A DNA stretch of 64,000 nucleotides from Balneola sp. (GTDB lineage Bacteria; Bacteroidota; Rhodothermia; Balneolales; Balneolaceae), in NCBI GenBank assembly GCA_002696035.1, contig NZQV01000018.1, forward strand, positions 1 through 64,000. Direction: 5' to 3'. Shown piece by piece: positions 12,166 to 47,051 of the stretch (position 1 is the first letter of the stretch; each line of letters starts with the position of its first letter). The notes under the pieces were generated by a model. That model searched no databases. It worked only from the letters and a program-made list of their open reading frames with translations, and was not told the origin of the DNA. The translations under genes and the position numbers were made by a program.

Positions 12166-12314
12166 ACGTTATATTTATTTCTGTATTAAAATTTTGCTAA
12201 CCCAAAGCGCCTCAGATGGTTCTGCTCACACTCGGTTAGACCATGTCAGCTTGCGTCATCTTTCCAACTAAATTTTCGAAATAATAGTTTAAAATTCCCG
12301 CATATACACATACA

Positions 12315-12326
12315 TTACACATGTAA
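12315..12326. promoter_or_regulatory. candidate operator TTACA-CA-TGTAA before umuDC
   Basis: TTACACATGTAA is an inverted repeat with five-base arms and a two-base spacer, 24 bases before the umuD start. SOS-type umuDC operons are usually repressed through such a dyad. The sequence does not match the Proteobacterial or Bacillus LexA box, so the regulator is unknown. Confidence 0.4.
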
Positions 12327-12349: not shown

Positions 12350-12790
12350 ATGGAGGAACTTAAAATATATCAGGGCGGATCGGAAAAAAAGCCCAAACAA
12401 GAAAGGAAGTTATCACAAAAAGCAGAGACTGGTTTTGTGTCTCCGGCGGCCGATCATCTCCAAAAACCGCTGGACCTGGAAGAGCTGATCGTGCATCACC
12501 CCACCGCCACATTCTATGTACGTGCTGAGGGAAATGCAATGAAAGCTTCCGGTATTCACGATGGCGATATTTTAGTGGTAGACCGTTCACTCAATCCAAA
12601 TGATGGTACCATTGTGGTTGCTGCTATTGATGAAGAACCCGTCATACGACGCTTAATAAAACGTGGGGGGCGGCTGCTTTTGGTTTCAGATGATCTCAAG
12701 ATCAAACCATACGCCATTAATTCCGACACCAACTGGATGATCTGGGGAGTGGTGACACATGTGATTCATAAGTACCGTCATGAGCATTGA
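12350..12790 (+). CDS. umuD: UmuD-like S24 protein with missing catalytic dyad
   Basis: This 146-residue protein aligns along its whole length with E. coli UmuD: GFVSPAADHLQKPLDLEEL, HPTATFYVRAEGNAM, GIHDGDILVVDRS and WGVVTHVIHK. UmuD cleaves itself with a Ser60/Lys97 dyad at Cys24-Gly25. Here the serine of GDSM is Ala63 (codon GCA, GNAM), the lysine is Arg100 (VIRRL), and the P1 residue is Thr27 before Gly28. The spacings 36 and 37 are the same as in E. coli. All three changes predict a protein that cannot process itself. The gene overlaps umuC by 11 bases and is otherwise intact, so it is probably functional in uncleaved form. The GAGG in ACGAGGTGTAA serves as ribosome site. Confidence 0.9.
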   Translation: MEELKIYQGGSEKKPKQERKLSQKAETGFVSPAADHLQKPLDLEELIVHHPTATFYVRAEGNAMKASGIHDGDILVVDRSLNPNDGTIVVAAIDEEPVIRRLIKRGGRLLLVSDDLKIKPYAINSDTNWMIWGVVTHVIHKYRHEH

Positions 12791-14114
12791 GCCAGAATCA
12801 TACAATAACCGCAGTTCCATTGTGTATGCCATGGTAGACTGCAACAACTTTTATGCATCCTGCGAACGAGCCTTTGATCCCAAACTGGAGGGCCGACCCG
12901 TTGTCATTCTTTCCAACAATGATGGTTGCGTGATCGCCCGTTCCGAGGAGGCTAAAGAGTTGAATATTCCCATGGGGGCTCCGGAATTCAAATACCGAAA
13001 TTTCTTTAAAGAACGCGGAGTCGTCGTTCGATCCTCCAACTACCCGCTGTATGGCGATATGTCGCGCCGGGTAATGGAGACGCTGCGCCGACTCACCCAC
13101 GATATTGAAGTTTATAGCATTGATGAAGCCTTCGCCGAGCTTTCCACCAATACCTATACTGACCTGGAAGAATATGGCAAGATCATTAAAAACACCGTTT
13201 ATCAATGGACCGGGATTCCCGTTTCGGTGGGTATTGCACCCAGTAAGACTCTGGCCAAAATTGCTAACGAAACGGCCAAACGAAATCTCTTATATAACGG
13301 TGTTTTGAGTTTGTGTGACAATGCCGGTACCGATGCCATTCTTAAACAAATGCCTTTGCAGAAAGTTTGGGGAATTGGACATAGCCTGACTATTCGGCTG
13401 AATCGTTACAATATTTCTACAGCCTATCACCTAAAACAAAAGGTTAACAACAAGCGATGGGTTCGGAAGCATCTCAATGTAACCGGATTGCGAACCGTGC
13501 TGGAATTGAATGGACTTCCCTGCATGAAATTAAGTGAAGCGCTGGAAACGCGGAAAGGGATCTTAACCTCCAGAATGTTTGGCAAGCCGCTCTACGATCT
13601 GCCGGATATTCAGGAAGCTGTAGCGACTTTCATTTCCCGGGGAGCTGAAAAATTACGGGCTCAAGGCTCGGTTGCTTCCAATCTTCAGGTAACACTGATC
13701 GGGGATAAGTTCAAAGATCCCAAGTCAAAATATAAATATGGAGCTTATACCTCTTTTAAGGTTCCCACCGCCCATACTCCAACTTTGATCCATGCCGGAA
13801 AACGAATCGCAGCAGCTGTTCATCTCCCCAACACCAAATATAAAAAAGCGGCCATCATGCTAACCGGACTCGTTCCCCACAGCGAAGTACAAATGGACCT
13901 CTTTGATCCCGACCTATACACTCAGCAACAATTTCGACTCATGGAATGCATCGATCAGATCAATACCAAGCACGGACGTAATAAGGCGGCCTTTGCTGCA
14001 ACGGGATTGCATCGTAAAAATAATGAGGAAGCTACATGGAAGATGAATCAAAACTTTTTAAGCAAACGATACACTACAGACTGGAATGATATTATGGCTG
14101 CCAAAACTGAGTGA
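12780..14114 (+). CDS. umuC: Y-family DNA polymerase V catalytic subunit
   Basis: This 444-residue protein has the Y-family palm signatures YAMVDCNNFYASCERAF near the N-terminus and YSIDEAFAEL around residue 110, which supply the metal-binding acidic residues. The PSKTLAKIANETAKR finger segment follows, then helix-hairpin-helix and little-finger regions and a C-terminal DUF4113 (LMECIDQINTKHGR, TDWNDIMAA). It carries out error-prone translesion synthesis, normally as a complex with processed UmuD. Its start overlaps the end of umuD by 11 bases, indicating translational coupling. All motifs look intact, in contrast to the changed UmuD. Confidence 0.93.
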   Translation: MSIEPESYNNRSSIVYAMVDCNNFYASCERAFDPKLEGRPVVILSNNDGCVIARSEEAKELNIPMGAPEFKYRNFFKERGVVVRSSNYPLYGDMSRRVMETLRRLTHDIEVYSIDEAFAELSTNTYTDLEEYGKIIKNTVYQWTGIPVSVGIAPSKTLAKIANETAKRNLLYNGVLSLCDNAGTDAILKQMPLQKVWGIGHSLTIRLNRYNISTAYHLKQKVNNKRWVRKHLNVTGLRTVLELNGLPCMKLSEALETRKGILTSRMFGKPLYDLPDIQEAVATFISRGAEKLRAQGSVASNLQVTLIGDKFKDPKSKYKYGAYTSFKVPTAHTPTLIHAGKRIAAAVHLPNTKYKKAAIMLTGLVPHSEVQMDLFDPDLYTQQQFRLMECIDQINTKHGRNKAAFAATGLHRKNNEEATWKMNQNFLSKRYTTDWNDIMAAKTE

Positions 14115-42573: not shown

Positions 42574-44052
42574 CTACAATAACGACTTCTGACTCCCATA
42601 CTTCTCTAAATAACGATCCAGCTTTAACTTCTTCCGGGTTGAGTCGCTCGTCATGTAGCGCAGTTTCCCATAGATAGGGCGTTCCTGCCAGGCTCGGTCA
42701 AACCTACCAAAGCACCAGAATATCCCCGAATAACTGTTGGGATCACGTCCATCCAATGCATACCGGTTATTCAGCTCGATCATGTAATCCAATGCCGTGC
42801 GGTAGTCTTTGCTCCACTCAATGATCTTCTTACCCCACAACATCCGCAGGTAGTTCTGCATGATGCCTGTCTCCCTAAGCTGTGTTTGAGCAGCATTCCA
42901 GATCTCATCGTGGGTTTTGGATTGGGCGAATTCCTCCAGCTCGTACACCCATTCACGCTCATCATCCTGATGTTTGCCTAGCGTCTTGAGCACCCAGTCC
43001 GGCAGGCTTTCAAACTGATCGTAATCCGGTCGGTGATGGGCGAAATGGAATCCCACTTCTCGCCAGGTGATCACTTCGTCCAGGAAACTCTCTACATTTG
43101 GATCGCCGTTAAAGAAACCCGAATTCTTTCCTTTGTTTGGGGTGATGTCACCCAAGTCCCAGTTTTCGGGCTGATGATCGAGGACCACCTTCACGATCTC
43201 GTATTCACTTATCAACCCAAAGTGCAGCCACGGACTTAGTCCACTAGCTGCATCTGCATCGGGGTCATTGCGTTCCTCATCATAACGGCTCAGCCCATGT
43301 GCGATAAAATCTCCTAATTTACCCAATGCGTACTGCCGGGTCCCTTTCATGTCTGTTATACCGATGTCATGGTTGATATCCAGTTTGGAGATAAAAGCGG
43401 GAATATCATCCAGCAGGTCATCAGCCCGGGGATATTTATCTTCAAATCCATCCGGCAATTTTGCCCTTTCTTTATTCTTTAGATCATCGAGCGGGTCTTT
43501 CGTTGGTGGATGCGTATAAGCTTCCAAAAAATGTTTTTGCATCACTTTTCGAAACAGGTAGGCGGAATATGGGTCTTTATCAGTGACGCCCAAAGGGATA
43601 ATGCCGTTCGAGTCGATAGAGATATATGGCACATCAATTTCCTCGGCCATTTTTTCGTTGTTCTCACGAATGATATACACCGGATATTCATCGGCCACAA
43701 CCGCCACTGCATTTTCTGCCAGATCATAGAACGATTGCTCTACCGTGCCGGCCTCCTCTTCAGCATAACAATAGTGGCTGACATCAGAATCCTTAAGCTC
43801 ATCCAGATGCTCTTTCATCCCCTCCAGCAAAAAGGAATGAAAGCGATCGCTGGCCCAGGGATAATTTACCATCACACTTTCGTAGATCAGAAGGGGCTTG
43901 TCATGTTTATTGGCAAGAGCCACTGCATATTCCAACGCATAATTGTATTGGGTGCGCCGGTTGATCTGCATCCAGTACAAGATGTAATCCCCATCCGGAT
44001 TTGCCTCATTATCGTTCCGCTTAAATTTTCGGTAGCTGTTGATGTTTTTCAT
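42574..44052 (-). CDS. class II CPD photolyase
   Basis: This 492-residue flavoprotein matches class II deoxyribodipyrimidine photolyases. It has the N-terminal DYILYWMQINRRTQYNYALEYA block, the LLEGMKEHLDEL antenna domain, the FAD-binding region with LSPWLHFGLIS and WREVGFHF, and the diagnostic C-terminal run with WGKKIIEWS and YALDGRDPNSYSGIFWCFG. It repairs cyclobutane pyrimidine dimers using light. It lies on the same strand as two unknown membrane proteins and the FeS-type photolyase, only 29 bases from the nearest. Confidence 0.92.
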   Translation of the reverse strand: MKNINSYRKFKRNDNEANPDGDYILYWMQINRRTQYNYALEYAVALANKHDKPLLIYESVMVNYPWASDRFHSFLLEGMKEHLDELKDSDVSHYCYAEEEAGTVEQSFYDLAENAVAVVADEYPVYIIRENNEKMAEEIDVPYISIDSNGIIPLGVTDKDPYSAYLFRKVMQKHFLEAYTHPPTKDPLDDLKNKERAKLPDGFEDKYPRADDLLDDIPAFISKLDINHDIGITDMKGTRQYALGKLGDFIAHGLSRYDEERNDPDADAASGLSPWLHFGLISEYEIVKVVLDHQPENWDLGDITPNKGKNSGFFNGDPNVESFLDEVITWREVGFHFAHHRPDYDQFESLPDWVLKTLGKHQDDEREWVYELEEFAQSKTHDEIWNAAQTQLRETGIMQNYLRMLWGKKIIEWSKDYRTALDYMIELNNRYALDGRDPNSYSGIFWCFGRFDRAWQERPIYGKLRYMTSDSTRKKLKLDRYLEKYGSQKSLL

Positions 44053-45479: not shown

Positions 45480-47051
45480 CTAATTCAATCGTTTTAAGTC
45501 TTCAATAAACTTTTCCGAGCCCTCCCAGATCGCTTTTTTATCGTCTTCACTCTTTTTATTAAACATATTCACCATAAAATTGGCACGTCCGTTTTTAGAA
45601 AAGGTTTCCCGCTGCTTGTCAATGAAATTCCAATACAAATAATTAAACGGACACGCTTCCTCCCCGGTTTTCTTGCTGATCTTGTACTCGCAATGCTTGC
45701 AGTAATCGCTCATTTTATTGATGTAGTTTCCACTGCTCACATACGGTTTCGAGGCTAAAACCCCGCCATCTGCAAAAGTGGACATCCCCAGCACATTCGG
45801 CAACACCACCCATTCATACGCATCTACATAGGCCAGATGAAACCATTCATTTAATTCCCGTGGATCGGTTTCCGTCAGATTACTAAAGTTACTGAGCACC
45901 ATCAGCCTTGGAATGTGATGCGAATACCCCTCATCGATCACCGGCTTCAGACATTCACTCATGCAGTTCATTTTGGTCTCGCCTGACCAGTACATCTCCG
46001 GAAGTTTTTTGGTGAAGTTGAAGTGATTGGCATTCCGAACTTCCGGCATCATGGCTTCGTAGTACACCCGCACATATTCACGCCAGCCTATGATCTGCCG
46101 AATAAGCCCTTCTACTGAATTCAGCCGGGCCTCTCCGTTTTGATAGGTTTTTTCGGCTTTGTCACAGACTTCTTTAGGGAGAAGCAATCCGTTATTCAAA
46201 TACACCGACAATTGGGAGTGAAATAACTTGTATTGACCCTGAGCCATCGCATCTTCATACGGACCAAATTCATCCAGCCGCTCATCAATAAATTCATTGA
46301 GACGATACAACGCCTGCCTTCTTGTGACTGCATATGTGAAATTCTCACTATTACCGAAATGATCCGGGTACCACTCCTCTACCATCTCGATCACTTCCTG
46401 AGTAATTTCATCTGGCTCAGTTTCAGCAATAGTCGGAACCGGATGATCTTTAGGGAGCTTCTCGCGATTCTTCTCATCATAATTCCATTCCCCGCCCTCC
46501 GGCTGATCTCCATTCATCAGGTATCCCGACTTCCGACGCATTTCCCGATAGAAATACTCCATCAACCAGCCGTCTTTTACTCGTTCTTTATACTCTTCAG
46601 GATCGGCCAGGAAAAAATTGTTTGGGATCTCCCGGACCCGATCTTCAAATTCAGCTTGTATATTGCGCAGGCGTTCCCGGCTATCCCATTCGGAGGGCGT
46701 CATGAAGGTCATACTAAGCTGCTCATTGGCCGAAAGGATCTCTGACAATCCATCATCGAAATGACCTTTTGTGGAGTGATAATGCACCGGATAACCTGCC
46801 TCGGCACATTCAAGGGCGAAGTGACGCATACTGCTGAGTACATAGATCGCCTTTTTCTTGTGATGAGGAAGTTCATTTCCTTTTCCCGCTGACTCCATAA
46901 AGATGAGTAATGGTTTTTCCTCCCGGATCCAGCTGGGCCAGGCATCCATGTTCAGCTGATCATGTAAAATGAACACTGCTCGCCCATGTTCTTTTAAATT
47001 CGGTTTTGAAATGGTACTATCCACATGCGATAAAAAAGCTCTGTTGTCCAT
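45480..47051 (-). CDS. FeS-type prokaryotic (6-4) photolyase / cryptochrome-like protein
   Basis: This 523-residue protein matches the FeS-BCP family (PhrB-type). It has the N-terminal Rossmann domain (AVFILHDQLNMDAWPSWI), the FAD-binding helical domain (RQIIGWREYVRVYYEAMM), and a C-terminal region whose cysteines fit the [4Fe-4S] ligands: MSECLKPV earlier, then YCKHCEYK and EEACPFNYLYW. Family members repair (6-4) photoproducts or act as light sensors. It is first in a minus-strand run that continues through two membrane proteins to the CPD photolyase. Confidence 0.93.
   Translation of the reverse strand: MDNRAFLSHVDSTISKPNLKEHGRAVFILHDQLNMDAWPSWIREEKPLLIFMESAGKGNELPHHKKKAIYVLSSMRHFALECAEAGYPVHYHSTKGHFDDGLSEILSANEQLSMTFMTPSEWDSRERLRNIQAEFEDRVREIPNNFFLADPEEYKERVKDGWLMEYFYREMRRKSGYLMNGDQPEGGEWNYDEKNREKLPKDHPVPTIAETEPDEITQEVIEMVEEWYPDHFGNSENFTYAVTRRQALYRLNEFIDERLDEFGPYEDAMAQGQYKLFHSQLSVYLNNGLLLPKEVCDKAEKTYQNGEARLNSVEGLIRQIIGWREYVRVYYEAMMPEVRNANHFNFTKKLPEMYWSGETKMNCMSECLKPVIDEGYSHHIPRLMVLSNFSNLTETDPRELNEWFHLAYVDAYEWVVLPNVLGMSTFADGGVLASKPYVSSGNYINKMSDYCKHCEYKISKKTGEEACPFNYLYWNFIDKQRETFSKNGRANFMVNMFNKKSEDDKKAIWEGSEKFIEDLKRLN

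Follow-up and report, generated by a model that had tools for sequence, protein, structure and literature searches.

An intact umuD gene of Balneolaceae whose product is predicted to be unable to cleave itself

SOS mutagenesis is taught as having a defining safety step in the RecA-triggered cleavage of UmuD, which in E. coli switches DNA polymerase V (Pol V) on. The stretch of DNA analysed here (positions 1 to 64,000 of contig NZQV01000018.1 of Balneola sp., assembly GCA_002696035.1; referred to below as the window) carries, beside umuC, a umuD-like gene whose product appears to have lost the parts required for self-cutting. With a UmuD devoid of every one of these parts, Pol V must be controlled in another way.

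The umuD-like gene and its missing self-cleavage parts

The ORF at 12350–12790 starts with ATG, encodes a protein of 146 amino acids and overlaps umuC (12780–14114) by 11 bases; that the gene is intact and overlaps umuC had been noted in an earlier reading made from the sequence alone. The features of the umuDC locus given here all lie on the forward strand. BLASTP against E. coli UmuD gave 37% identity over 123 amino acids (E 2e-31), and the protein matched the Peptidase S24 family (Pfam PF00717, E 7e-24) as well as the NCBIfam model NF007621 (129.7 bits, above the cut-off of 110). The name carried by that model, 'translesion error-prone DNA polymerase V autoproteolytic subunit', is a wrong automatic name for UmuDs of the present kind. 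An AlphaFold2 model built from 39 homologues had a pLDDT above 90 in its globular part, and its best match in the PDB was E. coli UmuD' (1ay9; rmsd 1.2 Å, TM normalised to the target 0.89). Confidence was low for the N-terminal arm, for which a catalytic control also reached just 50–58, so that the low value says little about whether the arm is docked. The protein has a short arm of 27 residues only (codons 12350–12430) and no N-terminal DNA-binding domain, and was thus not classed as a repressor of the UmuDAb/LexA type.

Alignment to E. coli UmuD placed Ala63 (codon GCA, 12536–12538) at the nucleophile Ser60, Arg100 (CGA, 12647–12649) at the general base Lys97 and Thr27 (ACT, 12428–12430) at the P1 residue Cys24, which confirmed the three substitutions named in the sequence-only reading. 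The Thr27-Gly28 pair (12428–12433) occupies the position of the Cys24-Gly25 cleavage bond. The features of the autoprotease that are absent are thus Ser60, Lys97, an Ala/Cys-Gly bond and the P-h-h...V docking motif found in the arm of catalytic UmuDs. With these residues, self-cleavage of the protein should be impossible. UmuDs in this condition are referred to as dead below.

The window belongs to a 3.97-Mb genome whose relatives are Gracilimonas, within the Balneolaceae, a family of marine bacteria. Ala, Arg and Thr were present in 8/8 Gracilimonas genomes carrying umuD, the genome of the window included, and the same three residues in seven further genomes of the genus argue that no sequencing error is involved. 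Across the family, all 38 of the standard orthologues read had Thr at P1 and no working Ser-Lys dyad. Position 60 was found to be Ala, Glu, Gly, Asp, Asn or Ser, and position 97 Arg or Cys and never Lys; in the few proteins that keep Ser, position 97 is Cys and Met61 is gone. A one-strain mutation or a sequencing error, either of which had been named as grounds for refuting the sequence-only reading, is thus set aside by the recurrence of the dead residues in every orthologue. In contrast to the Balneolaceae, Ala-Gly, Ser and Lys are all present in 8/8 genomes read from f2, a sister family within the order, which places the loss at or near the base of the Balneolaceae. In a tree of UmuC, a different protein from UmuD, the Balneolaceae formed a single clade with a support of 100. 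An intact second UmuD was absent from the genome of the window, where the sole S24 protein with a dyad is LexA, and a second UmuD was not found in most genomes of the family.

To define what had been lost, the 38 dead UmuDs of Balneolaceae and nine from a distant family in another class of the same phylum (f26) were set against 119 umuC-linked catalytic UmuDs from the phylum and Desulfobacterota. Positions showing 80% conservation or more among the catalytic UmuDs were taken as strongly conserved. Six of them, and no others, were lost in both dead groups, namely P16, V22, P1 (24), S60, T95 and K97 in E. coli numbering. P16 and V22 lie in the stretch of the arm (TFPLF...VQC in E. coli) which, from what is known of UmuD and LexA, we take to dock the cleavage bond; all six lost positions are docking or catalytic parts for the arm. 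The remaining strongly conserved positions were for the most part kept in one or both dead groups, among them G25, F26, A30, D32, L40, T51, D70, D75, R76, E93, R98, L107, W128 and G129. Within the phylum, 52 of 58 catalytic UmuDs had the complete P16-hh-V22 motif, against 0/34 dead ones from Balneolaceae and 0/8 from f26.

The P1 residue was Ala in 119/119 catalytic UmuDs and Thr in 38/38 and 9/9 of the dead UmuDs of Balneolaceae and f26, respectively. The sequence-only reading, in which Thr27 was set against Cys24 of E. coli, is to be corrected in this respect; the real change is from Ala to Thr, with Cys a peculiarity of E. coli. All four Thr codons are used for this residue, which indicates that it is maintained by selection on the residue itself. 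The sequence T-G-F is likewise invariant in the dead UmuDs (38/38 and 9/9), as are the G, F, A and D around the GFPSPA segment of E. coli (G-F-x-x-x-A-x-D).

An internal start making UmuD' directly was considered and rejected as a general feature. An in-frame ATG lies right before ETGF, as a potential start for a UmuD'-like protein, in five loci (L012, L016, L018, L019 and L021); the window has GCA at this place, and most relatives have no start codon there.

Gene integrity, association with umuC and an SOS-like box

The dead umuD genes are intact, under purifying selection and clearly functional. The median dN/dS for umuD of Gracilimonas was about 0.06 in the body and about 0.10 in the arm (Nei-Gojobori), which is a rough figure with synonymous sites near saturation. 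The expectation that the gene works while its product should be incapable of self-cleavage was supported and could be extended to the whole family. Of 92 Balneolaceae genomes, 38 carry both an intact umuD and umuC and 51 carry neither; a divergent umuD stands alone in two, and umuC alone in one. The co-occurrence has a Fisher p of about 3e-22, a value that overstates the case given the relatedness of the genomes. The two genes overlap or adjoin in most genera. Those genomes that resemble Fodinibius have umuD far from umuC (L027, L028, L029 and L031), both genes still co-occurring, and broken copies of umuD are found where umuC is itself broken or missing; in L196, the unlinked umuD precedes TetR-like and ABC1-kinase-like genes.

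The partner encoded at 12780–14114 is a Y-family polymerase of 444 amino acids (Pfam IMS, IMS_C and DUF4113) in which the equivalents of D6, D101 and E102 are present; these three residues were conserved in 48/48 aligned partners of dead UmuDs. The window umuD is thus encoded, and co-occurs, with a catalytically intact umuC, as expected of a Pol V accessory subunit. A beta-clamp-type motif (QMDLF, 13890–13904) aligned with QLNLF of E. coli UmuC, and a conserved C-terminal tail (14037–14111) carries a WKMNQ...RYTT motif seen in nearly all partners of dead UmuDs, both the clamp-type motif and the tail being kept in most of them. The tail corresponds to the region which in E. coli binds UmuD', and also to the RecA-binding region. 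Its retention is consistent with predicted UmuD binding and support of translesion synthesis. Just before WKMNQ, at 14010–14040, the UmuC of the window has a short insert (HRKNNEEA) which is found in part of the Balneolaceae only and is absent where position 97 is Cys; being so confined, it does not explain the loss of cleavage.

Upstream of umuD, an SOS-like box (TACACATACATTACACATGT) was detected at 12305–12324. With two mismatches allowed at most, the 3.97-Mb genome contains just three copies of the pattern TACACATAYnnTnTACAYAT, which was drawn from the lexA and umuD sites: the promoter of the intact lexA, 12305–12324 and a second Y-family polymerase, the last being independent of the pattern. 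At this third site (C14:679025–679046, L036), the box lies 20–40 bp upstream of the start of the polymerase gene (450 aa). As the reversed pattern gave five matches, the count of boxes alone is not significant, but their positions are. The umuD promoter thus shares its box with lexA, a feature of an SOS regulon, and the box recurs upstream of linked umuD genes throughout the Balneolaceae, being missing from the unlinked genes of the Fodinibius-like genomes. The position of the box at lexA, umuD and the second polymerase, together with its recurrence in the family, makes SOS-type control of the umuDC promoter likely, and we infer that the umuD box is a putative binding site of LexA. It should also be noted that two large genes resembling those of photolyases or cryptochromes, seen on a look at the sequence only, lie close together in the window (42574–44052 and 45480–47051).

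An uncut subunit of Pol V and the alternatives

It is proposed that the UmuD of the window serves Pol V as a structural subunit without proteolytic activity, working uncut and in a UmuD'-like manner, RecA-triggered cleavage having been dropped, and this account is considered reasonably probable. The protein retains the UmuD' body together with the G-F-x-x-x-A segment that enters UmuC in the E. coli Pol V model, and the self-cleavage apparatus (arm-docking motif, P3, P1, Ser, Lys and the neighbouring Thr) is gone. In the proposed scheme the uncut protein would dimerise with its arm undocked and support UmuC much as UmuD' does, which would leave Pol V under the control of SOS-type transcription through the LexA-like box and of RecA binding through UmuC. 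No cleavage would occur in the cell, and the complex would be active rather than inhibitory. The loss of the docking residues together with the catalysts points to a UmuD'-like state, and in E. coli, UmuD3A (T14A L17A F18A), with its arm weakened, is regarded as a mimic of UmuD' (PMC5342242). Since G, F, A and D are invariant in the dead UmuDs, the GFPSPA-like segment probably continues to bind UmuC, now from within a longer chain. Activation of Pol V by RecA may also remain, the UmuC tail that matches the RecA-binding region being recognisable.

The same end state appears to have been reached by another route in a family of the same class as the window (f13), where arm-less UmuD-like proteins, most of them starting with M-x-F (L103, L119, L121 and L124), have a damaged dyad and umuC beside them in divergent orientation. 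Of the two roles suggested in the sequence-only reading, Pol V working with full-length UmuD is favoured because the docking motif is lost, UmuC is intact and this parallel lineage has an arm-less, damaged-dyad UmuD'. Against a UmuD'-like reading, the start of UmuD' (GFPSPA) enters UmuC near the active site in the E. coli Pol V model (PMC11791011), so that an uncut arm must fit there or be displaced.

The second suggested role, that of a permanent brake in which uncut UmuD would trap UmuC in an inactive, checkpoint-like UmuD2C complex, is rather unlikely. Uncleavable UmuD can be inhibitory in E. coli, where UV mutagenesis falls with S60A and UmuC stays at the membrane with K97A (PMC3901139, PMC4552617), and this counts against the UmuD'-like reading. 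However, a permanently silent polymerase should let the catalytic residues of UmuC drift, and they are intact in all 48 partners; the arm-docking motif found with the inhibitory form in E. coli is missing here, and the arm-less relatives with a damaged dyad also argue against a brake.

Also unlikely is a cut at the Thr-Gly bond made in trans, whether by LexA, by ClpP or by some unknown protease, that would give a normal UmuD'. The invariance of Thr-Gly-Phe, maintained through all four Thr codons, could reflect cutting at this bond by another protease, and in E. coli an active UmuD is able to cleave UmuD S60A in trans (PMC5342242). Against this, LexA, as the only other dyad-bearing S24 protein in the genome, has Ala-Gly at its own site, the motif that presents the bond is lost, and most Balneolaceae genomes yielded no second UmuD that could act in this way. 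A departure of UmuD from Pol V for another role, as a regulator, clamp or replication factor, seems very improbable; the unlinked, box-less umuD of Fodinibius-like genomes and the strongly conserved arm in f26 would fit it, but the near-perfect co-occurrence with intact umuC, the overlap or adjacency in most genera and the retained G-F-x-x-x-A-x-D segment speak against it. Sequencing error or gene decay has a negligible probability; broken umuD copies in a few related genomes (L084, L085 and L122) would fit decay, but the orthologues of the genus share the same residues, intact frames, low dN/dS and SOS-like box.

Other dead UmuDs and comparison with known systems

The dead UmuDs of f26 have T-G at the bond, Ala (once Ser) at position 60 and Arg at 97, and umuC adjoins the gene in nearly all genomes read. 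Their arm is strongly conserved (AYxGxKxFxQ...TANATGF, L149–L162), which suggests an unknown partner. Genome G357 of this family carries a catalytic umuDC (L151) and a umuDC operon with a dead UmuD (L279) together, offering a natural side-by-side comparison. A single dead UmuD was found in family f20 (L109; T-G, Glu, Arg). Two proteins keep Ala-Gly intact with a damaged dyad, L100 having lost Lys and L163 both dyad residues. In the Desulfobacterota sample, umuC-linked proteins with Ala-Gly were catalytic in 61/61 cases, and one dead UmuD was found, in Salidesulfovibrio brasiliensis (L203:2486–2995; T-G, Asp, Arg), where it lies downstream of a umuC split by a frameshift in a draft assembly. 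Two divergent UmuD-like proteins, in L082 and L083, have no umuC nearby and D-Y in place of the G-F segment.

The UmuC tree requires seven changes for the origin of the dead form, at least three of them forced, and the UmuD tree at least two forced changes; an AU test did not reject a single clade of Balneolaceae (f1) and f26 (p 0.32 for UmuC, 0.46 for UmuD). Among the matches listed from plasmids and phages, all annotations were of the ordinary UmuD or the HumD-like type. Whether UmuD has repeatedly been converted from a self-cutting switch to a permanent structural subunit, with convergent Thr-Gly-Phe for Ala-Gly-Phe, is judged evenly balanced; it would define a Pol V class without the RecA-driven cleavage gate, with several origins in Bacteroidota and one occurrence seen in Desulfobacterota.

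Searches of the open-access literature yielded no description of UmuD families that are uncleavable by nature, and such UmuDs go unmentioned in the UmuD passages brought up from a paper on SOS control in Bacteroidetes and from two surveys of polymerases in bacteria. What is new, as predicted from sequence, is a UmuD which lacks the features of an autoprotease and has those of a Pol V partner. A large natural group would thus have dropped UmuD cleavage and kept the polymerase, next to a sister family that is still catalytic. A comparison of relatives then offers a direct test of what cleavage is for, and structural work gains Pol V complexes that are uncut by nature.

The UmuD of the window resembles E. 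coli UmuD/UmuD' in its fold, arm length, G-F-x-x-x-A segment, umuC operon and SOS-type promoter box, and differs from E. coli UmuD in having no Ser-Lys dyad, Thr at P1 and no docking motif. It is also like two laboratory mutants of E. coli, the uncut S60A and the UmuD' mimic UmuD3A (PMC5342242); in contrast to these, it occurs in nature, is fixed throughout a family and joins the two kinds of change to a Thr at P1. HumD of phage P1, annotated as complementing UmuD', is likewise a UmuD'-type subunit that needs no cutting, but it starts at the cleavage site (MGFPSPA), whereas the window protein keeps a full-length arm of 27 residues conserved in the genus. The f13 proteins share the damaged catalytic residues, have a divergent umuC and begin at M-x-F, where the UmuD of the window has an arm. 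ImuB and other inactive Y-family subunits are also enzymes turned into structural subunits of a mutasome, the dead part being a polymerase in their case and a protease here.
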